NCBI GenBank assembly: GCA_015233015.1 | Contig: JADFYO010000003.1 | Coordinates: 27,653 to 91,652 of the forward strand | DNA length: 64,000 nucleotides | From: Nitrospirota bacterium | GTDB lineage: Bacteria; Nitrospirota; Thermodesulfovibrionia; Thermodesulfovibrionales; Magnetobacteriaceae | Reading direction: 5' to 3' | Shown: one piece after another, positions 20,919 to 43,877 of the stretch | Position numbering within the stretch: position 1 is the first letter of the stretch | How the letters are laid out: every line of letters starts with the position of its first letter | Made by a program: the position numbers and the translations under genes | Notes under the pieces: model-generated | Told to the model about the DNA's origin: nothing | The model's input: the letters and a program-made list of their open reading frames with translations, nothing else | Databases searched by the model: none

Positions 20919-23900
20919 TCATGGGGAATAAACGGCGGTAACGGCGTAATCCTCAACCATGATGGCCCGGATGACGCTGACCGGCGGCATCGCCACCCCG
21001 TTGACCAGTATTTGCGTCAGCGTACTGCCGGCACCCGGCATGAAATAGAATATTCTCGTCGAACCCGAAGGTACGGATATGTTGCTGTCTTTTTTCAGTG
21101 CCGCTTGCGGGTTAAAGCTGTCGTCATAGACAAGCACCGAGCCGTTTCCGGAGATTGTAAAGGTAACGGTTTGAATTGTGTTATTGGTTATTTGCTGTTT
21201 AATTGGTGCTGACTTAGAGGCTGGATTGTCCGCGTCGCCGCTATAGTTTGCCGTTATAAAATGAGTACCCACGGGCAGTGCATCGGTTGCCATGGAAGCG
21301 GTTCCATCAAAGAGAGAAACTGCCTTGAGGGTGGTTATGTTATCAAAGGTCGTGTTGCCGGTTGTGTTGTCGATAGTCATGTTGTCCATAAATGTAACGG
21401 TGCCGGTGGGGTAATTGCCGGTAACCGCCGCCGTGAAGGTTACCAAAGTGCCGTAAAGTGCGGGATTTATAGATGACGTGACTGTAACGGACGCAATGAT
21501 TTGGGTGAGTACCGCCGATGTCGCAGCCGGATTATTCGCGTCTCCGCTGTAGGCCGCCGTAATCGAATACGTACCGGCGGCCATCGATGAAACGGTCAGA
21601 GCTGCCTGTCCGCCGCTGTCGAGTGTGACGGTTGACAAACGTGTTGTGCCGGACATAAATGTAATGGTGCCGGTTGGAGAATTCCCCATAACCGCCGCCG
21701 TGAAGGTTACCGGGACGCCGTAGTTTGCCGGATTCATCGACGATGTAACGATTACAGAAGTTACAACCTGACTGAGTGCATTTGATGTGGAAGCAGAGTT
21801 ATTAGTATCCCCGCTATAAACAGCGGTAATTGAATGAGAACCGGCAGAGAGTGACGCTGTCGTATAGGCGGCCTGTCCGTTTGAAATGGAAACGGCAGCA
21901 AGGATGCCTGAGCCGTCTTTAAACGTAACGGTACCTGTCGGCGCGCTGCCGTTGACGGTGGCTGTGAACGTTACCGACACGCCAAATGTCGCGGGATTCC
22001 TGGACGATGTGAGAGATGTTGCCGACGACATTGAACTTACGACCTGACTTAACGCCCCGGATGTGGAAGCAGCGTTTATTGTATCCCCGCTATAAACAGC
22101 GGTAATTGAATGAGTGCCGACAGAAAGTGACGATGTAGAATATGCGGCCTGTCCATTTGCAAGTGAAGCGGTGCCAAGTGTAGTCGATCCGTCCTTAAAC
22201 GTAACGGTGCCCGTTGGGGATGTGCCGGGAACTGTGGCTGTGAAAGTAACAGCCGAGCCGTATTTTGCTGGATTCATGGACGATGTTATGGATGTCGTTG
22301 TAGTTATCGGATTTACGACCTGACTAAGCGCACCCGATGTGGAAGATGAATTATTAGTATCCCCGCCGTAGGCCGCCGTGATTGAATGAGTGCCGGCAGA
22401 AAGAGTGGACGTGGAAAATGAGGCTTGCCCGTAGTAAGGTGAAGCGGTACCAAGTGTTGTAGAGCCGTCAGAAAAAGTAATAGTGCCTGATGGAGGGGGG
22501 CCGGTTTGAGCGCTGCTGGTCACGGCAGCCGTGAAAGTTACCGCCGCGCCGTAGGTTGAAGGATTCTGGGATGACGTAATAGTTGTCGTTGTAGTTGCCG
22601 GAGTTGGCGTTGGAGTGGGTGTTGGGGTTACTGAATTAACAACCTGATTGAGTACCGATGATGTGGAAGACGAATTGTTTGAGTCCCCGCCGTAGGCCGC
22701 CGTTATTGTGTGAGTTCCGGCAGAAAGGGAAGACGTTGAATATGCGGCTTGTCTGTTTGCATTGAGTGAAGCAGCGGCAAGAGTAGTCGTGCCGTCCTTA
22801 AATGTAACTGTTCCTGTTGGCGAGCTGCCGGTTACTGAGGCTGTGAAGGTTACAGTGTCGCCGTCGTTTGATGGTTTCAGGGACGAGCTGACGGTTGTTG
22901 TTGTCGATGTTGTGGCATTCACAACCTGTGTAACAGTACACGAAGTTGACGCATTGTTTGTGTCCCCGCCGTAAGCCGCCGTTATTGTGTGGGTGGATGC
23001 AGAAAGTGACGATGTTGAGCAGGAGGCTGAAGTCGAGCTGAGTGTAACCGAGGAGCAAATTGTCCCGCCTATACTATCGGAAAATGTAACGCTACCGCCA
23101 GGAGAATTACCACCTGACACTGAAGCCGTAAATGTTACCGAATTGCCGTATGTCGAGGGCGTTCCAGATGTAGAGCATGAAATCGACGGCGACATCTTTA
23201 GCAGTTTTACGCCGGTCTCGCTCCCGCTGAATGTGCTCTGAAGGGCATTTGTGATTATTGAGGCGATATAATGACCGCCCGGGTAAGAAGAGATAGAGGT
23301 TGATTGAAAGGCAGTAGCGCTCCAATTTGTAGTGCTGTCGAAAGGGACATAATATGACTGCCCGTTGTCAATCCGCATCATCTGTAAAATAGGATAGTTG
23401 GTGGATGAGTTGTTGGTAGCGCCTCCGCTTGCTTCAGAATCACCCTTGAACTTAGTGCCAGCTATAGTTATATTGGTTCCGGCATAAGATATTGAACTTA
23501 CGTCAGGACGGCGGCTACCGGTTATCAGGCCAGCGAATGGGTCGAATACTTCCGCTGTCTGAGTAGAGTAGAACCCCCCGGCAATAAGCACCTTACCATT
23601 TGGTAACAGAGTAGATGTGTGGTAGAGACGCTGTTGATTAGGATTGTCGGTAGCAGTAAATGTCCCTGTTGTTGGGTCATAGAGTTCTGCTGTTTGATTA
23701 GAAGAGTACCCCCCGACAATAAGCACCTGACCGCAGGGTAACAGCGTGGCTGAATGTAGATAACGTTGTTGAACAGGATTGCCTGTAGCAGTAAATGTCC
23801 CTGCCGTTGAATCATACAATTCTGCTGTTTGTTGAGAAGGGGAGCCTCCGACAATGAGCACCTTACCGTTGGGTAACAGCGTAGCTGTGTGATAGTAACG

Positions 23901-25604
23901 CTGTTGAACAGGATTGCCGGTAGCGGTAAATGTTCCTGCCGATGGGTCATAAAGTTCTGCTGTTTGTTGAGAACCAGTGATGCCGCTGCCGGTAATAAGC
24001 ACTTTTCCGTTTGTTAACAGCGTGGCGGTGTGCATGTCTCGTGGCTGTTTCGGTGTGCTGGTAGCGGCAAAAGTCCCTGCTGTTGGGTCATACAGTTCTG
24101 CAGTTTGTTCAGCAGCAGTCGTTGACCAGCTGCCGACAATAAGTACCTTACCGTTAGGTAACAGAGTGGCAGTATGCCAGCTGCGCGGTTGAACAGGTGT
24201 GCCGGTAGTGGCAAAAGTCCCTGGTGTTGGGTCATAGAGTTCCGCTGTTTGAGCAGCACCAGAAAGACCGCTGCCGACAACAAGCACCTTACCGCTGGGT
24301 AACAGCGTGGTCGTGTGATAGTAACGCTGTTGATTTGGATTGCCGGTAGTATTGCTGAACATCCCTATCCCTGCCACAGATGGGTCGTACAGTTCCGCTG
24401 TTTGAGCATATGTGGTATTGTCGCTGCCGACAATAAGCACCTTACCGTTTGCTAACAACGTGGATGTGTGATTCCAACGCTGATAAGTAAGATTGTAGGC
24501 GGTGGCGGAATATGACCCTGCCGATGGGGTGAACACTTCCGCAGTCTTTTGGTTACCCGAAGAGTTAGTACCGACAATGAGCACCTGACCGCCTGCTAAC
24601 AATGTTGCTGTGTGGTAACAACGTGATTGAACGGGGTCCCCGACAGTGCGGGCAAAAGTAGTCGCAGTAGGGTCGTAAAGTTCAGCTGTTTGACCAGAGG
24701 TGCCGCCCCCGACAATAAGGACCTTACCATTAGGCAGCAGTGTTGCCGTGTGGAGGTAACGGTTCAGAACCGGACTGCCGGTAGCGGCGAATGTACCCGC
24801 GGTTGGGTCGAAAAGTTCAGCTGTTCCGGCAGATGAGTTACCCCCGACAATAAGCACCTTACCGTTACCGGTTTCTAACAGCGTTGCTGAGTGATAGTAT
24901 CGCTGATGAACCGGGTTGCCGGAAGTATAGGAAAAAGTCCCGGTAGTATTGTCGTAAAGTTCAGCCGTTTGAAGAGAACCCGTACCCCCAACGATAAGCA
25001 CCTTGCCGTTTGATAAGAGAGTTGCGGTGTGATAGGAACGCTGTTGTTTAGGAGTGCCGTTAGTAGCGGTAAACGTTCCTGCTGACGGGTCATAAAGTTC
25101 AGCTGTCTGCTCGCTGCCAGCGTAGCTGCTGCCGACGATAAGCACCTGACCGTTGGATAACAGCGTGGCGGTGTGATTTGCACGCGGTTGAACAGGAGTG
25201 CCATTAGTGCCGGAAGTAGCGGTAAACGTCCCTGTCGATGGGTCATAAAGTTCAGCTGTCTGACCGGTAGCCGAGGAGACCCCACTTCCTACGATGAGCA
25301 CCTTACCGTTGGGTAAGAGCGTTGCTGTGTGATAGTAACGTTGCTGTGTAGGGGCACCTGTAGTAGTAGTAAACGTCCCTGTTGACGGGTCATAAAGTTC
25401 GGCTGTTTGAGTAGACAACATACCTCCGACAATAAGCACCTTGCCGTTGTTTAACAGCGTGATTGTGTTGGATTCGCGGGAGTTATTTGCATTGCCAACA
25501 GCATTAAAACCGCCCACTACCAATGCGGAGGCCGTCTGATTTGTTGCGAAAAGAATTATAGCAAATAACAACAGAGTTATGAGAATATCCGGTACCCGAT
25601 TCAT
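20919..25604 (-). CDS. Secreted giant with 14 Kelch-type blades and 7 Ig-like domains
   Basis: The 1561-residue protein starts with a signal peptide ending near TASALVVGG. Fourteen consecutive repeats of about 46-51 residues follow (QRxYHTATLLPNGKVLIVGG, then QTAELYDPxxGTF), enough for two seven-bladed propellers. Next comes a galactose-oxidase-C-terminal-like domain (near residues 690-790), then seven bacterial Ig-like domains of about 90 residues (VTFTA, GTVTFKDG, ITAxYxGDxNN). A PTPTPTPTP linker precedes the third. A short C-terminal beta domain ends the protein. No catalytic Tyr-Cys motif of galactose oxidase was noticed. A surface or adhesive role is likely. No LPXTG or autotransporter barrel is seen. 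Confidence 0.85.
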   Translation of the reverse strand: MNRVPDILITLLLFAIILFATNQTASALVVGGFNAVGNANNSRESNTITLLNNGKVLIVGGMLSTQTAELYDPSTGTFTTTTGAPTQQRYYHTATLLPNGKVLIVGSGVSSATGQTAELYDPSTGTFTATSGTNGTPVQPRANHTATLLSNGQVLIVGSSYAGSEQTAELYDPSAGTFTATNGTPKQQRSYHTATLLSNGKVLIVGGTGSLQTAELYDNTTGTFSYTSGNPVHQRYYHSATLLETGNGKVLIVGGNSSAGTAELFDPTAGTFAATGSPVLNRYLHTATLLPNGKVLIVGGGTSGQTAELYDPTATTFARTVGDPVQSRCYHTATLLAGGQVLIVGTNSSGNQKTAEVFTPSAGSYSATAYNLTYQRWNHTSTLLANGKVLIVGSDNTTYAQTAELYDPSVAGIGMFSNTTGNPNQQRYYHTTTLLPSGKVLVVGSGLSGAAQTAELYDPTPGTFATTGTPVQPRSWHTATLLPNGKVLIVGSWSTTAAEQTAELYDPTAGTFAATSTPKQPRDMHTATLLTNGKVLITGSGITGSQQTAELYDPSAGTFTATGNPVQQRYYHTATLLPNGKVLIVGGSPSQQTAELYDSTAGTFTATGNPVQQRYLHSATLLPCGQVLIVGGYSSNQTAELYDPTTGTFTATDNPNQQRLYHTSTLLPNGKVLIAGGFYSTQTAEVFDPFAGLITGSRRPDVSSISYAGTNITIAGTKFKGDSEASGGATNNSSTNYPILQMMRIDNGQSYYVPFDSTTNWSATAFQSTSISSYPGGHYIASIITNALQSTFSGSETGVKLLKMSPSISCSTSGTPSTYGNSVTFTASVSGGNSPGGSVTFSDSIGGTICSSVTLSSTSASCSTSSLSASTHTITAAYGGDTNNASTSCTVTQVVNATTSTTTTVSSSLKPSNDGDTVTFTASVTGSSPTGTVTFKDGTTTLAAASLNANRQAAYSTSSLSAGTHTITAAYGGDSNNSSSTSSVLNQVVNSVTPTPTPTPTPATTTTTITSSQNPSTYGAAVTFTAAVTSSAQTGPPPSGTITFSDGSTTLGTASPYYGQASFSTSTLSAGTHSITAAYGGDTNNSSSTSGALSQVVNPITTTTSITSSMNPAKYGSAVTFTATVPGTSPTGTVTFKDGSTTLGTASLANGQAAYSTSSLSVGTHSITAVYSGDTINAASTSGALSQVVSSMSSATSLTSSRNPATFGVSVTFTATVNGSAPTGTVTFKDGSGILAAVSISNGQAAYTTASLSAGSHSITAVYSGDTNNSASTSNALSQVVTSVIVTSSMNPANYGVPVTFTAAVMGNSPTGTITFMSGTTRLSTVTLDSGGQAALTVSSMAAGTYSITAAYSGDANNPAATSAVLTQIIASVTVTSSINPALYGTLVTFTAAVTGNYPTGTVTFMDNMTIDNTTGNTTFDNITTLKAVSLFDGTASMATDALPVGTHFITANYSGDADNPASKSAPIKQQITNNTIQTVTFTISGNGSVLVYDDSFNPQAALKKDSNISVPSGSTRIFYFMPGAGSTLTQILVNGVAMPPVSVIRAIMVEDYAVTAVYSP

Positions 25605-25787: not shown

Positions 25788-26606
25788 TCATGGCTTAGTT
25801 GGCGTGTACTTTTCCAGCATAGCCGTTAAGATTTCAGGGGATGACGGCCATTGACCACGCCTCTGCCCCGCATGGGTTTGATAGTCTCCCAATCGGTCAG
25901 GGTCAGGCTGTACCACTTTTCCATCCTTTAGGAATAGCAGCCCGACTTTATCAGTGGGCATTCGGGAGACAAAGGTCTCGGCGGCATTCAGAACCTGCCT
26001 CAGAAGCGTCAAAACATTGGCGGCATCTACAGGCGGGTCGCTGGTAACGCGCCGAAAGTCGGCCTCCGTATAACAGGCAAGACGGCGGATTTCGTTGATA
26101 AGCCCTTCGGGCGTGAACCCTGGAGACTTCTCGACTGCGGCCAGGACAACGGCACCTATCGGTAAAATCCGGTCGTTGATCGTTATTATGTCAACCACAT
26201 CGCGCGGCTCTCGCCGCCCGGCTGCGGCCATAACCTTATTCATGGCAAGATCAAGGGGATGAAGGACGAAGCCGAACGTGTCATCCCGCACAGTCGGGAA
26301 AAACCGGAAGTCGCTGTCAACCACCCACTCCAGCTTTGTTGTCGCATCCTCCTTCGAGGCCAGTATGGAGTAAAAGGCCGGCTCACGCCGCTGCCATTGG
26401 AGGGCATACCCATTGGCCTGCAACATTGCGCTGTCCACCTGCACCGCCTGCGCCACTCGTTCTTCTCGGTCATGGAAGATGTCGATATCTTCAGAATAGC
26501 GCGGGGCATTCCTGTTTAGAGGAGCGCTTCCGGCAACGTAACTTTCGGGGTCGCGGTGAGCAGCCAGAAGGCACAAAATCGCGGTCTGAATTTTAGACAG
26601 CGGCAC
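25788..26606 (-). CDS. Nucleotidyltransferase of the AbiEii/AbiGii toxin type
   Basis: The 272-residue protein contains the DNA-polymerase-beta-like nucleotidyltransferase motif: VAGSAPLNRNAPRYSEDIDIFHD (about residues 21-43) with a GS, an Arg and the DID metal-binding pair, then a third acidic segment in TTKLEWVVDSDFRF. The AMNKVMAAAGRREPRDVVDII segment is characteristic of AbiEii/AbiGii-type proteins. Members act as toxins or abortive-infection effectors that modify tRNA or proteins. The GTG start overlaps the upstream small gene by 14 bases, a toxin-antitoxin-like arrangement. GC content is visibly higher than in the neighbouring accessory gene. Confidence 0.82.
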   Translation of the reverse strand: MPLSKIQTAILCLLAAHRDPESYVAGSAPLNRNAPRYSEDIDIFHDREERVAQAVQVDSAMLQANGYALQWQRREPAFYSILASKEDATTKLEWVVDSDFRFFPTVRDDTFGFVLHPLDLAMNKVMAAAGRREPRDVVDIITINDRILPIGAVVLAAVEKSPGFTPEGLINEIRRLACYTEADFRRVTSDPPVDAANVLTLLRQVLNAAETFVSRMPTDKVGLLFLKDGKVVQPDPDRLGDYQTHAGQRRGQWPSSPEILTAMLEKYTPTKP

Positions 26607-34231: not shown

Positions 34232-37200
34232 TCAGCGCGCTGTCCTGAATCTCTTCTCAAACAGATACCTTCTCTCCGATAAGATAGTCTTCCAGTTTGC
34301 CGCTATTTCGTCGAGTTTATTTTTTATTCCTCCGGTTGTCAGCCACCCATATCCGCGCAGAGATAACTCCCTTTGCAGCTCCTTGAAATCACTGTCAGTC
34401 CACTGGGGTTTTTTCACCGCGGGGTATTTGCCGGCTGTTTTGAGCGCTAAAAATATCTCCACAAATGGCCGTGCGCCGTCGTCCCAGTCCGCGGGTTTTT
34501 TTATGGCTGTCTGCCAGTGCGCGTACCAAACCCCTGCGGCGGTATCGTCGCCGCCCGTTACAATATAATGGCCGTCGGGGCTTATGCCAACTGCCATTAG
34601 CGCGCCCATATGCCAGTTGGCCACCTTTGATAACTCCCCTGAGAGTATGTCGTAAAACCGCAGACTGCCGTCGTCGCCGCCTAAGGCTGCATACCTGGCG
34701 TTAGGCATTATGCCGGTGCAGGTGGGCTTCCCCATGCGCCATCCAAACGTGCGAAAGGTCTCGCCCGTTGGCACATCCCACAGACGCGCCGCTTTATCGC
34801 CTTCGGCCGTCAGGATAAATCTCGCGTTTGGTGTGACCGCAAGGCTCGTAACGCCGTGTGCGGCAAGACCTTTAAACTTATTCAGCTGCTGCCCTGTGGA
34901 CAAATCCCAAAGAGCCGCCGCCCCGTCTGCCCCGCATGTAAAGTAATACATCCCGTCGGGGCTGACTGCCAGAGCGGCCAGTTTACCGCCGGACATATAT
35001 GTATCGAGGCATTCACCGGTAAAAGAATCCCATAGTTTTATCGTGCCGTCTGCCCCGCCTGAGAGGATGCGGCGGTTATCGGGGACGGTAACCACAGCCG
35101 CCACTGCATCCTTGTGCGCCTCGATGATACGAACACATTCGCCGCTTAACACATCCCACTGCCGGACTGTGCCGTCAGTACCCGCCGAGAATATGGAACG
35201 ATTGTCCATTGCCAGACCAAGGGCAGTTACGCCGCCCGTATGGCCCTCTAAGACCCTTATACACTTGCCGGTAATAATATCCCAGAAACGCAGCGTCTTG
35301 TCGGAACTTGCCGTTATGGCGTGCCTGTTGTCGGAAAATACTGCCACACCGGTTATCTTCCCTCGGTGGCCTATGAGTGAATTCACCCTCCATACATCTG
35401 CAAGTTTCGTCTGAGGAAATACGCTGTGCATCTTATCGAGAAGGCGAAGGGGTTCCTCTTCCCGCTGGAAACCCTTGAGTGCGTGAGCCAGGGATAAGGC
35501 TTCTATTGCCTTTGCATAGTGTTTATCCTTCATAAAGTCCACGCCAAGCTTCAGCAGACCCTTATACTTTGCCACGCTTTCCTGCCAGTCAGCGCTGGTT
35601 TTGTCCTTCAGTTCAGCGAATTTGGCGTTAACGCCCTCAACAGTCAGCCAGCCAAACCCCCTTCGTCTCAGCTCTGTCTTTAGTCTGGCCGCGTCCCCGG
35701 CTTCAAACACCGGCGGCCCCACTGTTGTCAGCGTGTCGGTTACTATCTTTCTATGATTTGAGAGAAATCTATTTACATAAGGAAGCGCCCCGTCAACCCA
35801 GTCCGTAAAATCCCTTATTGTAAAACCCCACTGGAGATGCCACACAAAGGCCGTATGGTCCTCGCTCCCCGTTATCATCATGCCTGCCGATGGGGCAAGC
35901 GCTATGCTGGTTACAGGGGCCTTGTGTCCGCCAAAGGCGGAGGATGCCTCTGGTTGTGTCTTATCCCAGAGAAGCGCTGTGCCGTCATGGCTCCCTGAAA
36001 TAAAAAACCGTCCGTCAGGACTTATTTGTATGGATGTAACAGCGCCGCTGTGTCCTTCGAATATAGCGGTATTTGTTCCCGTTAAACTGTCCCACAGGCG
36101 AACTCTCCTCTCAGCGCCTCCGGAAACAATAAACGTACCATCGGGACTTATCGCAACTGCCGTTACCGTATCCGTATGGCCGGCGAGGACATTTCTGACA
36201 TTTCCTGACACGCAATCCCATAGGCGGATGTTTCTGTCAGTGCTGCCCGATGCGATAAAGGTAAGGTCTTCGTCTATTGCCGCACATGTAACACTGTTCG
36301 ATGGGCATTTATATACCTTAACGCGCCCGCCTGTTTCGACATCCCAGAGAATTATCAGGCCGTCAAGGCTTCCAGAAAGAAGAAACCTGCCTCCACGGGC
36401 GCTGCAGAGCGAATTAATCTCTGCCGTATGCCCCTTGAAGGCCCTCTTTACCTCACCCGTTTTTATATCCCACAGGACAATACCCCCGTCTCTGCCGCCT
36501 GAGATTACTCGCTCACTGCCATATGTAAGCAGTGCCGTAACGGGACTGCCGCTTAGCGTCATTATCAAATTGCCCCTGGATAAGTCCCATATTCGCACAC
36601 GATTGTCTTTGCAGGCGGTGACGGCAAGTTTTTCGTACCGAGTGAATGCGGCTGCCGTTATCCCGCTGCCGTGCCCTCTGAGAACGTAAAGCCTCAGAGA
36701 GGCCGCAAGGCGTGTCCTGGGAAACGTCATTGACATCTCCTCAGTGAGCATGAGGGCCTCTGCATGATTTTTATAACCGTCAATGGAGCGCGCCTTGTTT
36801 ATTTCTGAGACAGCGGCGGAGTAACTTCCGGCATTCATCAATTCCTTCGCCTGTGCTATCGCCCTTTTAAAGCCTTCCTCCGAAAGCCGCCAGCTGGTTA
36901 GCGCCGCTTGCTGAAGTTCGTTTAATTTCGCGCGTACTCCGTCGGGTTTGAGCCATCCAAAGCCCCGCAGGCCGAGTTCTGAAAGGAGTGAGGCGACATC
37001 AGTCTCATCCCATATGGGGCTGCCCCTTCTTGTGAACGAATCTTTTATAAACGGCGTATGCCTCGATATAAATAGTTCCGCATATGCTGCGGCCCCGTCG
37101 TCCCAATCTTTAAAATCCCTGGCCTCTATCTCCCAATCGATATAGAAGGCTCTCAGCGTGTGGTCGGCACTCCCTGACCAGGCATACCAGCCGTCACAAC

Positions 37201-40200
37201 TGAAACACACAGAGCACACACCGCCGCCGTGGCCGGTAAACGTGCGGCTTACGCGGCCTGTCCCCGCGTCCCACAGGCGCACCGTGCCGTCGAGACTGCC
37301 CGATACTATGAATCTGCCGTCGGGGCTGAACTCAGCGGCAAGCACTCCACCAGTATGGCCTTTGAAAGAACGGGAGAGTTTTCTCGTGCCGATGTCCCAT
37401 ATATGAAATGTATTGTCAAACTGTCCCGTAGAGACTACATATTTAAGGTCGGGGCTTATCGCCGCAGAAGACACGCTGTTGTTATAGGGCTTCATAGACA
37501 CCAGACACTCTTCAGTGGCAACGTCCCATATGCGAAGGCTTCCATCTTCATATCCGGCTATGACACTGCGCAGGTCAGGCGTGGCCACGGCACATGTGAC
37601 GCGGCTCATGCGCTCGAAAAAAATTCGCACTTCAAGTCTGCTTTTTAAGTCTGTCAGGACAACGGAGCCGTCAAGGCTTCCTGTTAGCGCATATTTGCCG
37701 CAGGGGCTGAATGAGGCTGCCGTTACGGGTGCACAATGGCCGCTGAATATCCACTTTAATTCACCATTTTCCACGTCCCACAGACGTACCGCGGCGTCCT
37801 CGCCCCCGGAGATGATAAACCGGCTGTCGCCGCTTATTGCAACGGCGTTAACCATTCCCTCATGCCCTTTAAAGATTTTCAGACAGCTCATCGAAGCGGC
37901 ATCCCAGAGCGCGGCTGAGCAGTCAGCGCTGCCGGTAACGACATACCTGCCGTTTTCGCTCACGGCAACGGCATTTACAGCGCCGTCGTGTCCCTGGACC
38001 GCCCCCAACTCCCACGCCCCTTGTACCCTTTGCTTTGGAAACACGCGGGAGAGTCTCTCTATGAGTTTCAGCGCATCCCTGTCCCGTTCGTAACCCTTTA
38101 TCTGGCGGCCTTTTTTTATAAGCTCGGGGATGCTCATGAGGCTGCCTTCATTTATAAGCCTTTCGGCCTCGTCCAAAATCGTTTGAAAGCCGCCCTCTCG
38201 TTTCCCCGCCTCTTCGCTCGATACAGGAACGGCTAAGGCATATGGCAGTATAAACCTGTTCAGGCAATTTACCACACGCAGGCCATTCCATACAGAATAT
38301 ATGGCCGTCTTGCCGTCAGCGCTCAGGGCCAGCGACGGCCCCTCAAATCTTTTGAATACATATTCCCGCTGGCCGCTCTCTATGTCCCAGCGGCAGAGGG
38401 TGTTGTCAGTGCTGCCAGAGATAAAACTCCTGCCACTTTGCATAAATGCAGCCGAGGTAACGGCGCCGTTGTGTCCGCTGAATGTCTTCAGGTGTTTACC
38501 CGTGGCGGTATCCCAGAGCCGTATCGTCATGTCTTCGCTGCAGGTGAGGATAAGGGACGAGCCGCTGTCTCTTGCTATGTTGTTCACTGCCCCTTCGTGC
38601 CCGGCCATAACCATCAGGCACTTCCCCGTTACTATGTTCCAGATGCGGACAGTCTTGTCATTGCCTGCCGATATAACATAAGGTCCGCGCTGACCAGTCG
38701 ATAGTGAGGTTATCCTGCCGCTGTGGCCCTCAAGGGTTCGAACGAGGCTGGCAGAACCCGACAAACTCCAGAGGCGAATTGTCCCGTCGTTCCCTCCGCT
38801 TATTGCATATTTGCCATCGGCAGTCGCCGCAACCGCTGTTACGCCGTCCTTGTGGGCATCGAAGACCCTGATGCAGTTCCCCCGCATTACATCCCAGAAA
38901 CGCAGAGTTCCGTCAAGGCTTCCCGATATTACCGCGGCCCCGCCGGGGCTATAACACACGCACGTAACCCAGTCGTTGTGTCCCTCAAGGACATGAAGGC
39001 ATACCCCTGTGTCCATTTTCCACAGGCGCACACTCCTGTCTTCGGTACCGGCAGATACGGCCGTGTTGCCGTCCGCAGACAGAACAACCATGCTGACAAG
39101 GCCGCTATGCCCCTCCATTTGATTTATTACCTCGTAACCCGGCAAATACGCCAGCGACACGGCAATGACCGAATTTGGCAGCGACGGGATTTCCTTTCTC
39201 ATTTTATCGTAAAATGCCTCAGCCTCATCCGCTCTGCCCTGCTTCAGCAGGGACATGGCATGGGCGGCGATAATCTGTATATCCCTCGAGCCTCCTTCGA
39301 TCAGGAACTTCGAATATTTCTCCGCGTCTTTCCATATGACCATGGCGGCGGTGTCGTCTTTTTTCGAGGAATGCCTGCCCTCTGCACAGAGTGCCGCAAC
39401 GAGGGCCTTTATTTCGTCTGAGGAGGCCGTAGCCTCTTTAAATCCCCTCCACATAGTATCGAGCGCCTTTCCATATTCGCCAAAGAACATATACATCCTG
39501 CCTATCAGATTGTAATCCCTGTGTTTGAGGGTTTGATTCCTCATCACTTCCTCAAATCTGCGAAATATATCCCGCTCCGTAATGGCGCACAACTTCCATT
39601 CGTAGAGGGCGAGATTGAACGTAGATTCGATATGATGCGGGTCAACGCGCAGGGATTCCTTCCACATGCCCGCGGCCTCGTCCACCCGCCCAAGGTCTAA
39701 GAACGAAACGGCACGATTATTCAGGCTGTCGGCGGTGAGGCGCGCTGCCAGAAATTCGCCGCGCGGGTAGTCTTTCCCCGTGATGTCTTTATATATTTGC
39801 CTGAGTTCTATTATTATCTCCATCATATTGGCGGGACGCTGAGCGACTTCCTGCGAAAAACACCGTCTGAGGAGCGCTGCCAGCGGCCCCGGCATTTTGG
39901 GGATATTTCTTTCTCCCGACGGAGCTTCTCTCAGGTAATCGTCCAGCACGAGGGCGGCCACATTGCCGCTTAACCACGTGACGCTTCCTATGAATATCTC
40001 TAACATGGAAACCCCCCATGACCAGATGTCTGTCTTTAAGGTGAGGGGGGCCTTATTTGCCTGTTCACACGAACAGTATGCCTGCGTCATGCCGCCGAAG
40101 CTCGACAGGTGCTTCTTTTTGCTCTGCATATTCGTCGGCATGACCTCGCCCGATACAATAGGTACAGCGGCGGGAGATGGGGCATCTGAGGCGGTAAGCG

Positions 40201-40696
40201 ACTGTGCCCGGGCAAGTCCGAAATCCGTAACCTTGGCAATCCCATCCAGCGTCATCAACACGTTTGCCGGCTTGACGTCCTGATGAATAAGCCCCTTTTC
40301 GTGCGCATAGTTAAGCCCTGTGGCGAATTGTATTGCTGTGTCGAGGATTACATCCATAGACTTGAGCTTGCCCTGCTTTATACAGTCGCGCAGGGAGCCG
40401 CCTTCGAGGTACTCGGCAAACACACATGGAACTCCGCCTATGCGCCGAACATAGTAACAGCTGACAATATTCGGATGAAGGCCCAGGTTCATCCATGTCC
40501 CGGCCTCCCGTTCAAAACTGCTTTTTTGTGTCTCTGTCCTGAAATACTCCGGACGGGGGCATTTCATTGCCATGTCCGAGTTCCAGCCCCTGTGATATAC
40601 GCGATAGACCAGCCCCATGCCCCCACTTGTGAAGACTTCCCTTACTTCGTAGAGGTCTAAGATTACGTCGCCAACCGACCACCCGGTGCTAGTCAT
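34232..40696 (-). CDS. Ser/Thr protein kinase with TPR-like region and four WD40 propellers
   Basis: The 2154-residue protein begins with a Hanks-type kinase (residues 15-300): SGGMGLVYRV nucleotide loop, Lys in MAMKCP, catalytic HQDVKPANVLM (Arg of HRD replaced by Gln) and DFGLARA. A helical, TPR-like region follows to about 500. Then comes a first WD40 block of about seven repeats, followed by three copies of a roughly 430-residue module. Each module has a helical linker ending in VFPxxR/K, seven to eight WD40 repeats, and a tail with DW(D/V)DGAxPYVxxF and GFGWL (about 1199, 1632, 2069). Such kinases act as signalling scaffolds. ATG follows GAGGAA; it is divergent from a hybrid kinase. Confidence 0.92.
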   Translation of the reverse strand: MTSTGWSVGDVILDLYEVREVFTSGGMGLVYRVYHRGWNSDMAMKCPRPEYFRTETQKSSFEREAGTWMNLGLHPNIVSCYYVRRIGGVPCVFAEYLEGGSLRDCIKQGKLKSMDVILDTAIQFATGLNYAHEKGLIHQDVKPANVLMTLDGIAKVTDFGLARAQSLTASDAPSPAAVPIVSGEVMPTNMQSKKKHLSSFGGMTQAYCSCEQANKAPLTLKTDIWSWGVSMLEIFIGSVTWLSGNVAALVLDDYLREAPSGERNIPKMPGPLAALLRRCFSQEVAQRPANMMEIIIELRQIYKDITGKDYPRGEFLAARLTADSLNNRAVSFLDLGRVDEAAGMWKESLRVDPHHIESTFNLALYEWKLCAITERDIFRRFEEVMRNQTLKHRDYNLIGRMYMFFGEYGKALDTMWRGFKEATASSDEIKALVAALCAEGRHSSKKDDTAAMVIWKDAEKYSKFLIEGGSRDIQIIAAHAMSLLKQGRADEAEAFYDKMRKEIPSLPNSVIAVSLAYLPGYEVINQMEGHSGLVSMVVLSADGNTAVSAGTEDRSVRLWKMDTGVCLHVLEGHNDWVTCVCYSPGGAAVISGSLDGTLRFWDVMRGNCIRVFDAHKDGVTAVAATADGKYAISGGNDGTIRLWSLSGSASLVRTLEGHSGRITSLSTGQRGPYVISAGNDKTVRIWNIVTGKCLMVMAGHEGAVNNIARDSGSSLILTCSEDMTIRLWDTATGKHLKTFSGHNGAVTSAAFMQSGRSFISGSTDNTLCRWDIESGQREYVFKRFEGPSLALSADGKTAIYSVWNGLRVVNCLNRFILPYALAVPVSSEEAGKREGGFQTILDEAERLINEGSLMSIPELIKKGRQIKGYERDRDALKLIERLSRVFPKQRVQGAWELGAVQGHDGAVNAVAVSENGRYVVTGSADCSAALWDAASMSCLKIFKGHEGMVNAVAISGDSRFIISGGEDAAVRLWDVENGELKWIFSGHCAPVTAASFSPCGKYALTGSLDGSVVLTDLKSRLEVRIFFERMSRVTCAVATPDLRSVIAGYEDGSLRIWDVATEECLVSMKPYNNSVSSAAISPDLKYVVSTGQFDNTFHIWDIGTRKLSRSFKGHTGGVLAAEFSPDGRFIVSGSLDGTVRLWDAGTGRVSRTFTGHGGGVCSVCFSCDGWYAWSGSADHTLRAFYIDWEIEARDFKDWDDGAAAYAELFISRHTPFIKDSFTRRGSPIWDETDVASLLSELGLRGFGWLKPDGVRAKLNELQQAALTSWRLSEEGFKRAIAQAKELMNAGSYSAAVSEINKARSIDGYKNHAEALMLTEEMSMTFPRTRLAASLRLYVLRGHGSGITAAAFTRYEKLAVTACKDNRVRIWDLSRGNLIMTLSGSPVTALLTYGSERVISGGRDGGIVLWDIKTGEVKRAFKGHTAEINSLCSARGGRFLLSGSLDGLIILWDVETGGRVKVYKCPSNSVTCAAIDEDLTFIASGSTDRNIRLWDCVSGNVRNVLAGHTDTVTAVAISPDGTFIVSGGAERRVRLWDSLTGTNTAIFEGHSGAVTSIQISPDGRFFISGSHDGTALLWDKTQPEASSAFGGHKAPVTSIALAPSAGMMITGSEDHTAFVWHLQWGFTIRDFTDWVDGALPYVNRFLSNHRKIVTDTLTTVGPPVFEAGDAARLKTELRRRGFGWLTVEGVNAKFAELKDKTSADWQESVAKYKGLLKLGVDFMKDKHYAKAIEALSLAHALKGFQREEEPLRLLDKMHSVFPQTKLADVWRVNSLIGHRGKITGVAVFSDNRHAITASSDKTLRFWDIITGKCIRVLEGHTGGVTALGLAMDNRSIFSAGTDGTVRQWDVLSGECVRIIEAHKDAVAAVVTVPDNRRILSGGADGTIKLWDSFTGECLDTYMSGGKLAALAVSPDGMYYFTCGADGAAALWDLSTGQQLNKFKGLAAHGVTSLAVTPNARFILTAEGDKAARLWDVPTGETFRTFGWRMGKPTCTGIMPNARYAALGGDDGSLRFYDILSGELSKVANWHMGALMAVGISPDGHYIVTGGDDTAAGVWYAHWQTAIKKPADWDDGARPFVEIFLALKTAGKYPAVKKPQWTDSDFKELQRELSLRGYGWLTTGGIKNKLDEIAANWKTILSERRYLFEKRFRTAR

Positions 40697-40796: not shown

Positions 40797-40865
40797 ATGT
40801 GGGCTGTTAATGAACCGGCGCTGTCTCACAGCTGTCATAACCATTGCCCTTATATTACTGACGGT

Positions 40866-43800
40866 ATGAGGTTAAGTTTGAGTTATCTGAGAAATAAATA
40901 CATAGCCCTGGGCATATTCTCACTTCTGGCAATAGTGGCTGCCGGATTGCTGTTTACTTATTACCTAGTTGCACACGCCGAGTATGAAGACCGCCAAAGC
41001 GGCACAGCGACTATTAAAATCCTGAAAAACAGAATAGTAGGGGAGTTAAGCAAATATGAGCAGTCAGTTGTCTCCCTTTCCAGCTCGCCGTGGATAATAA
41101 GCGCTCTGAAATCCGGCGGAGATATTGAAAAGGCCAATTCTGTCCTTGACAGATATAATAAAACGTTTAAATCTACTGTGTGTTTTATCCTTGACCTCAA
41201 AGGCATGGTCATCATGTCTTCTAACCGGAACAGCGAAGACAGTTTTATAGGTACGTCCGTTGCCTTCAGGCCATATTATTTACAGGCTTTATCGGGCGGC
41301 GTCGGCCGTTATTTTGCCCTTGGAGTAACATCGAACAAGAGGGGTTACTATGTATCTTCTCCGGTAAGGGATGACAACTCAACTATAATCGGCATAGCCG
41401 TGATAAAAAAAGAAATCGATGTCCTCGAAAATGACTTTCGGCACTACTCCTATTGCTTTCTGGTTGACCCTCACGGAGTTGTTTTTATTGCCGGAGACTC
41501 GGCTCTGGCCAGTAAAAGCCTCCAGCCGCTGAACAGAGAGGAAGAGCTGGATTTACTTCGCTCAAAACAATTTGGAAATAAATCTTTCAGGTCAATATTG
41601 AACGCCAGACATAGAAACGGCGATATCATCTCCTTCAAAGACCGCACGTTTACCTATTTAGAAGAACCAATAGATATTTATGGATGGTCTATAGTACTTT
41701 TCGCGTCCAACAAAAACTCAGAACAACACAGAGTCTTTGGACTGGCCGTTACATCAACGCTATGCGCCGTCTTATTGATCTTTTTCTTTGGCGCAATCAA
41801 AACTGAGAGGGCAGGAACTATTGCCGTTGCGACCAAAGAAGAGCTGACAAGATTAATCAATGCCATGCCAGATATAGTGTTTTTTAAAGACGGCCAGGGC
41901 AAATGGCTTGAGGCTAATGATTTCGTCCTTAATTATTTTAACATCGATAAACAGAGATACAAAGGTAAAACCGACGCTGAGATAGCGCTTGATAACGAAT
42001 ACTACAAAGACGCTATCAGGAGAAACACCGGGCTGGACGAGGAGGTGTGGACTTCCGGGACGATCATGAATAAGGAGATAACAATAACACACCCTGACGG
42101 CACGGTAACGACATTTGATATACTGAAAACGCCCGTGTTTCACCGCGATGGCAGAAGACGCGGCCTCGTTACCATTGGACGCGACATAACAGAAAAGAAG
42201 CTGATGGAAATAGAGCGTAAGAGATCTGAGCAGACGCTGCTGAAATATCAAAATACCCTTGAGGACCTCGTAAATGAACGAACCAACGACCTTGTAAAGA
42301 CAAATGAGGAGCTGCGCGCCGAGATAGCAGAAAGAAAGAAGGTTGAGGCCGCCCTGACAGAGAGCGAAATAAAATACCGGCAGCTCTTCGAGCTTACGCA
42401 CGCCGGTATCCTCGTCATAGATAAAAATGGAATAATAACGTTGGTAAATCCACGCATGGCAGAAATGCTTGAATACGATGCACAGGAAATGACGGGAAAG
42501 CAATTACTGCAGTTCATTAACGCTCAATACATAAACATATGCCGGCACAGCATAGAGCGCCTTGCCCAGGGCATAAGAGGCCAGATGGAGCTGGAATTCC
42601 TGAAAAAGAACGGCAAGGCCGTTTACGCGACAATCGAAACGTCTCCGATAGTGGACGACCTCGGCAGATACGAAGGAGCGGTAGCAGGGGTCATCGACAC
42701 AACAGGGCACAAAGAACTTGAAAATCAACTCCTGCAATCGCAAAAAATGGAATCCATTGGGCAGCTTGCCGGAGGCATTGCCCACGACTTCAACAACATC
42801 CTGTCAGCAATGACAAACTATGGATATCTGCTTAAGATGCGGATAAAAGACGACACTGCAGCAGCTGGTTATACCGCTCACATACAAGCCCTGATAGAAA
42901 GGGCGGCAAGTCTAACTAAAAGCCTGCTTGTCTTCAGCAGAAAACACATCTACGAATTAAAACCTGTAAATATTTCCGAACTTGTAAGGAACATAGAAAA
43001 ACTCCTGACGCGGCTCATAGGCGAAGATATTGAAATTAAGACGATAATCAGAGACTCCGGTGTAATGATAATGGCAGATAAGACTCACATCGAAATGGCC
43101 CTGATGAACCTGGCTGCAAACGCCAGAGACGCCATGCCGGAAGGCGGTGCTTTAACCGTAGAGCTTGGAATTCCCAGCCCTGACTTTCCGAGAACTCACG
43201 GCCTCACCGGCGGCACCAGATACGTCTATATTAAGATATCCGATACCGGAATGGGTATGAATGAAGATACAAAGGCAAAGATGTTCGACCCATTCTTTAC
43301 GACAAAAGAAGTAGGCAAGGGGACGGGGCTGGGCCTAAGCACTGTCTATGGGATTGTGCGGCTTCACAAGGGTCATATAGAGGCAGAAAGTAAAAGAGGA
43401 GAGGGTTCGGTTTTTACCATATATCTGCCAGTTGAGGAGAATATCGGCGAAGAGGAAACTCTCTGCCAACCCACGGCTAAGATGGGTGCCTCAGAGACGA
43501 TACTCCTTTCCGAGGACGATGAAGCACTAAGGAGAATAACCGTCAAGGTGCTCAAACGAGCGGGCTACAAGGTGGTCGAAGCCGTTGACGGCAAGGATGC
43601 GGTAGAGAAATTCATCGAGCACAAGGACGATATAGATATCGTCGTGCTGGATGTCATAATGCCAAAGAAAAACGGCAAGGCAGTCTATAACGAGATAAAG
43701 TTACATAAACCCAACATAAAGGTGCTCTTCATAAGCGGCCACACATATAACGTAATTCATGGAAAGGGTGTTTTCGAGGAGGGGTTGAACTACATCGCGA

Positions 43801-43877
43801 AACCAATAATGACCGATGAGTTTTTGTCGAAGATACGGGACATTCTCGATAAAGATGTCTCATCGGCTGCATTTTAG
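40866..43877 (+). CDS. Hybrid sensor histidine kinase (extracytoplasmic sensor, two PAS, HisKA, HATPase, receiver)
   Basis: About 1003 residues from ATG 40866. A transmembrane helix (about 10-35) and a second (about 290-311) frame a Cache-like extracytoplasmic sensor. PAS domains begin near 325 ([16 protein letters not shown]) and 503 ([15 protein letters not shown]). The phosphorylated His is in [15 protein letters not shown] near 636; the N-box is [17 protein letters not shown], with [11 protein letters not shown] after it. The C-terminal receiver (876-998) has [12 protein letters not shown] and AKPIM. Autophosphorylation should pass to its own receiver. The gene end overlaps the convergent HD hydrolase by four bases. 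Confidence 0.92.

Follow-up and report, generated by a model that had tools for sequence, protein, structure and literature searches.

WD40 genes of cyanobacteria and planctomycetes are frequently linked to kinases or fused with them (PMC5587647), and earlier work has described bacterial kinase-TPR-WD40 proteins that carry long repeat arrays (PMC5587647, PMC11032199). The kinases of Planctomycetota carry up to 19 WD40 repeats (PMC11032199), and the structure of the WD40 domain of PkwA has been solved (PMC6113231). In PkwA of Thermomonospora curvata (PDB: 5yzv), a seven-bladed WD40 propeller lies C-terminal to a Ser/Thr kinase (PMC6113231). The gene described here, found in a 64,000-nucleotide stretch of a Magnetobacteriaceae genome (the window), likewise encodes a kinase and WD40 propellers in a single chain. 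In contrast to PkwA, with which it was compared via the WD40 domain, this protein (hereafter the long form) has four propellers and, in addition, linkers that are TPR-like and tail domains. It also resembles the kinases of Planctomycetota such as Ca. Uabimicrobium amorphum, in which a Pkinase domain precedes long C-terminal WD40 or TPR arrays; those proteins are mostly membrane spanning, whereas the long form has about 28 repeats and no membrane segment (PMC11032199). Its best 19-residue hydropathy value is 1.49, within the kinase domain, and no transmembrane-like segment was detected. The long form is thus an enlarged relative of bacterial kinase-WD40 proteins that are already known; its novelty lies in a linker-propeller-tail unit that was triplicated long ago and in the tail, as yet unnamed, that closes this unit.

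The protein is encoded by a single minus-strand open reading frame (ORF) of 2154 codons uninterrupted by a stop, exactly as the initial annotation had placed and measured it. A kinase domain, a TPR region, and a first propeller are followed by three copies of a unit composed of a TPR-like linker, seven blades, and a tail (Table 1). Boundaries were set with three profiles, for the blade (built from the protein's own sequence), the linker, and the tail. A motif scan located DW[DV]DGA three times (residues 1197, 1632, and 2070) and G[FY]GWL likewise (residues 1245, 1680, and 2115). The repetition noticed in the initial annotation is therefore real, but its period is 435–438 amino acids rather than about 430, and the unit limits lie slightly away from those first drawn. 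When tail 1 was used as a query against the genome, it recovered tail 2 (E = 7e-17), tail 3 (E = 5e-11), and a paralogue (E = 7e-12); such matches cannot be put down to chance, and by them the three tails are homologous. Pairwise identity among the whole units is 27–34%.

Table 1. Parts of the long form in window coordinates, and the related cassette elsewhere in the source genome
Feature	Residues	Position	Strand	Basis
Kinase-TPR-WD40 protein, long form, whole ORF	2154 aa	34232..40696	-	ORF and translation
Ser/Thr kinase domain	about 12-305	39782..40663	-	kinase model matches, catalytic residues
TPR region	about 315-515	39152..39754	-	weak TPR matches; kept among orthologues
Propeller 1, without tail behind	about 522-815	38252..39133	-	blade profile
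Unit 1 linker, TPR-like hairpin	834-895	38012..38197	-	linker profile, structure model
Unit 1 seven-bladed WD40 propeller	896-1186	37139..38011	-	blade profile, model, fold match
Unit 1 tail domain	1187-1263	36908..37138	-	motifs, tail profile, model
Unit 2 linker	1269-1334	36695..36892	-	linker profile, structure model, fold comparison
Unit 2 propeller	1335-1620	35837..36694	-	blade profile
Unit 2 tail domain	1621-1699	35600..35836	-	motifs, tail profile
Unit 3 linker	1704-1768	35393..35587	-	linker profile
Unit 3 propeller	1769-2058	34523..35392	-	blade profile
Unit 3 tail domain	2059-2133	34298..34522	-	motifs, tail profile
Three-gene cassette of the source genome		L030:7830-14904	-	

The four propellers comprise 28 blades, seven in each. 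The blade profile scored 27 of them; the exception is the degenerate seventh blade of propeller 1, directly behind which the first linker begins. Pfam alone finds 26 PF00400 stretches in the protein. The repeats are about 40 residues long and end in WD, and a structure model covering one unit, built from nine sequences from three genomes, shows linker helices, a seven-bladed ring, and tail helices (pLDDT 83.5, pTM 0.80). The closest solved structure to the modelled propeller is the PkwA WD40 domain, 5yzv, with 37% identity and a TM of 0.96 by target length. Compared with solved structures, the linker gave many TPR matches with a best Z of 10.2, although helical hairpins reach middling Z values by chance, and against Pfam it matched TPR_2 only at E = 0.05. 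The linker is helical, as first described, but fold comparison makes it a probable TPR-like hairpin rather than a novelty.

It was also proposed at the outset that the tail is distinct from a WD40 repeat and may be a new small domain; the first suggestion held, and the second stands as a candidate. An alignment of 22 diverse tails has invariant positions W3, F24, G60, and G62 and nearly invariant W13, L52, and L56. Queried singly, the tail found no convincing match in Pfam, NCBIfam, PHROGs, or PDB sequences. In searches of Pfam and NCBIfam, no family was matched by more than one of the 22 tails; the best PHROGs match had an E value of 0.47 and came from one tail, and the profile of the 22-member set reached an E value of only 0.36 against PDB sequences. 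The tail-plus-linker model gave nothing below E = 1 with Foldseek, and nearly all of its VIA fold matches span the linker alone and barely cover the tail. Identity with a known domain was therefore rejected as unsupported by the sequence searches and by fold matches that touch little of the tail. Prediction makes the tail an ordered, helical segment rather than a disordered one: 10-residue blocks in the unit model mostly have a pLDDT of 76–87, with the lowest at 61. Helices occupy model residues 367–379 and 398–410, and a third continues for 38 residues (418–455) from the tail into the following linker. When the tail was modelled without the propeller, its helices persisted and its first residues and inter-helix loop fell below a pLDDT of 50, consistent with the propeller supporting the tail. 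We regard the tail as a candidate small helical domain, new in the sense that it is unnamed in the libraries searched.

Genome searches, which were centred on Nitrospirota, found the tail in eight of 295 sampled genomes of that phylum, all from Magnetobacteriaceae, the source family. The family is represented by 19 genomes, of which 17 encode the tail and 10 a three-tailed long form. Seven of these ten are single ORFs of 2143–2282 amino acids, one is cut by a contig end, and two (G235 and G300, loci L037 and L042) are split by frameshifts, which may reflect sequencing error or decay. The orthologue in Ca. Magnetominusculus xianensis is full length and 77% identical, and another, also at 77% identity, is present in MAG nDJH14bin7; in the library of papers searched, none names both WD40 and Magnetominusculus. 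Most genomes carrying the long form also encode a one-unit paralogue of about 1250 amino acids. That of the source genome (L030:7830-11558:-) is 52% identical to the long form over the kinase and the start of the TPR region, and its layout is kinase, TPR, propeller, linker, propeller, and tail. It differs in having one unit, an N-terminal zinc-ribbon-like CxxC pair, an HRD motif, and a place in an FHA-kinase/PP2C-FHA cassette.

The tail was not found in viral contigs, and among the plasmids searched it occurs only in Nostoc, where a kinase with one unit and one tail represents the family outside Nitrospirota. This protein (WP_179076175.1, Nostoc sp. C057 plasmid p057_E) has, like the long form, a kinase starting GDIILDLY with an HQD motif, then a linker, a propeller, and a tail that is 38% identical to that of the short paralogue, and its neighbouring gene encodes an FHA-kinase. 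In contrast to the long form, it has a single unit, a first propeller shrunk to a few repeats, and a TPR array behind the tail. In genome G304 (L044:4286-14034:+), two adjacent kinase-WD40 proteins are encoded downstream of an FHA-kinase; by eye, one has a membrane segment and TPR-like sequence behind the tail and the other a long MORN-like array. A third paralogue in the source genome (L047:3335-9953:-, 1579 amino acids) adjoins an FHA-kinase and has a kinase and WD40 repeats followed by a hydrophobic, membrane-like segment. It was considered as a tail carrier and rejected: it shares the kinase-WD40 layout, but the segment behind its propeller cannot be aligned to the tail.

Kinase models match the N-terminal domain, and the catalytic Lys, HxD Asp, Asn, and DFG Asp of Hanks-type kinases are all in place (K45, H138-Q139-D140, N145, and DFG158). 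Three features might nevertheless mark the long form as a scaffold or pseudokinase, with a kinase fold that now serves for binding and an arm of propellers that does the work. The G-loop reads TSGGMG, with the second and third Gly kept and the first changed to Thr, whereas short paralogues have GEGGMG; the first Gly is replaced in all long forms read (the window, Ca. M. xianensis, nDJH14bin7, G172, G235, G241, and G300), a loss that could, to judge from the motif, weaken ATP binding. In the window protein, Cys replaces Pro in the SPEQ motif, and HQD stands in place of HRD. The initial annotation had noted this last substitution correctly, but it is no peculiarity of the protein: all long forms read at this motif have HQD, as do most short forms, Nostoc included, and the two Magnetominusculus short forms have HRD instead. 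Being so widespread, the Gln is not a sign of damage; non-RD kinases are in general independent of activation-loop phosphorylation. Moreover, HQD is found in short forms and in Nostoc together with canonical G-loops, and kinase-domain dN/dS among three near relatives is 0.08–0.18. With the four catalytic residues intact as well, we consider a pseudokinase unlikely.

At six of the eight Nitrospirota loci read (L030, L032, L034, L039, L040, and L041), the short form comes third in an FHA-kinase/PP2C-FHA/kinase-WD40 cassette, with the FHA-kinase and PP2C-FHA genes directly upstream on the same strand. By eye, the PP2C-FHA protein has a cyclase-like C terminus. On the Nostoc plasmid, the FHA-kinase and kinase-WD40 genes are kept as an adjacent pair. 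A link through the FHA and PP2C genes to the PpkA/PppA/Fha pathway of type VI secretion was rejected because the genome has no VipB (PF05943), with a positive control, so these genes more likely serve general phospho-signalling. No FHA-kinase or PP2C-FHA gene lies beside the long form within the DNA read at long-form loci. In the window, a hybrid histidine kinase with Cache, PAS, HATPase, and receiver domains (40797-43877, plus strand) is divergent from the long-form gene; such a neighbour adjoins the long form in Ca. M. xianensis too, but the search found none next to other long forms. Farther away, 20919-25604 (minus strand) encodes a 1561-amino-acid protein with Kelch repeats and seven Big_3_5 Ig-like domains, and the product of 25788-26606 (minus strand) has a weak AbiEii-like nucleotidyltransferase match under the curated cut-off.

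An anti-phage or other biological-conflict system, in which the propellers sense an invader and the kinase is the effector, might be read from the presence of the family on a Nostoc plasmid and from matches of the kinase domain to the PADLOC kinase models mad6 and PD-T4-6. Those models match kinases generally, however, and the NCBIfam MAD6 score is 85.9 bits against a cut-off of 460. No recognised defence-system genes lie next to the long form, which has been kept through the genus and the family, and we judge such a role very improbable.

In a tree of units, all one-unit forms, including Nostoc, fall into one group (100/100) and the unit 1 copies into another (86/88); units 2 and 3 each cluster by position, except for the long-branched G172 rows. 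The kinase tree separates long forms (90/100) from the short forms and Nostoc (96/98). Since units group mainly by position and the kinases split into long and short, the triplication predates the genera that carry the long form. Three tandem units within one ORF might be an assembly artefact or a very recent, functionless duplication, but this is refuted with near certainty by the low identity between units, the same layout in orthologues from independent genomes, and the mostly positional unit trees. Among three near relatives, every part of the protein, tails included, has a dN/dS of 0.07–0.47, which indicates purifying selection. On these comparative grounds, the triplication is old and retained. 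We infer that the change ran from one unit to three, not the reverse, because Nostoc has the one-unit form. The ancestor probably had an arm made of propeller 1 and a single unit of TPR-like linker, propeller, and tail, as in the short paralogue.

On balance, we think it likely that the long form is a soluble, cytosolic, and probably active Ser/Thr kinase of the kinase-TPR-WD40 family with a four-propeller docking arm. For this protein we infer kinase activity and, for its arm, docking, rigidity, and partner specificity. A one-unit arm would have been triplicated before the genera carrying the long form split. The tail would be a small helical domain behind each unit propeller, probably closing the ring, and since the last tail helix runs into the next linker, the units would be joined into a semi-rigid chain. 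Most likely, protein partners dock on the propeller faces of the arm, which presents them to the kinase; because the three units have diverged, they probably bind different partners. Different modules are seen behind the tail in relatives, which would make it a junction. More tentatively, and with less confidence than in the docking kinase itself, we propose that the tail is a new helical family specific to kinase-TPR-WD40 proteins, a junction that locks the propeller and accepts a further unit, TPR or MORN repeats, or a membrane helix behind it, and that the triplicated form is a kinase scaffold with four docking faces derived from the operon-bound, one-unit form.

These findings add a definable, unnamed domain to the bacterial kinase-WD40 proteins. 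They also provide a natural one-to-three-unit series for tracing position-specific divergence, and the conserved FHA-kinase/PP2C-FHA/kinase-WD40 cassette gives a functional entry point to the family in magnetotactic-type Nitrospirota.
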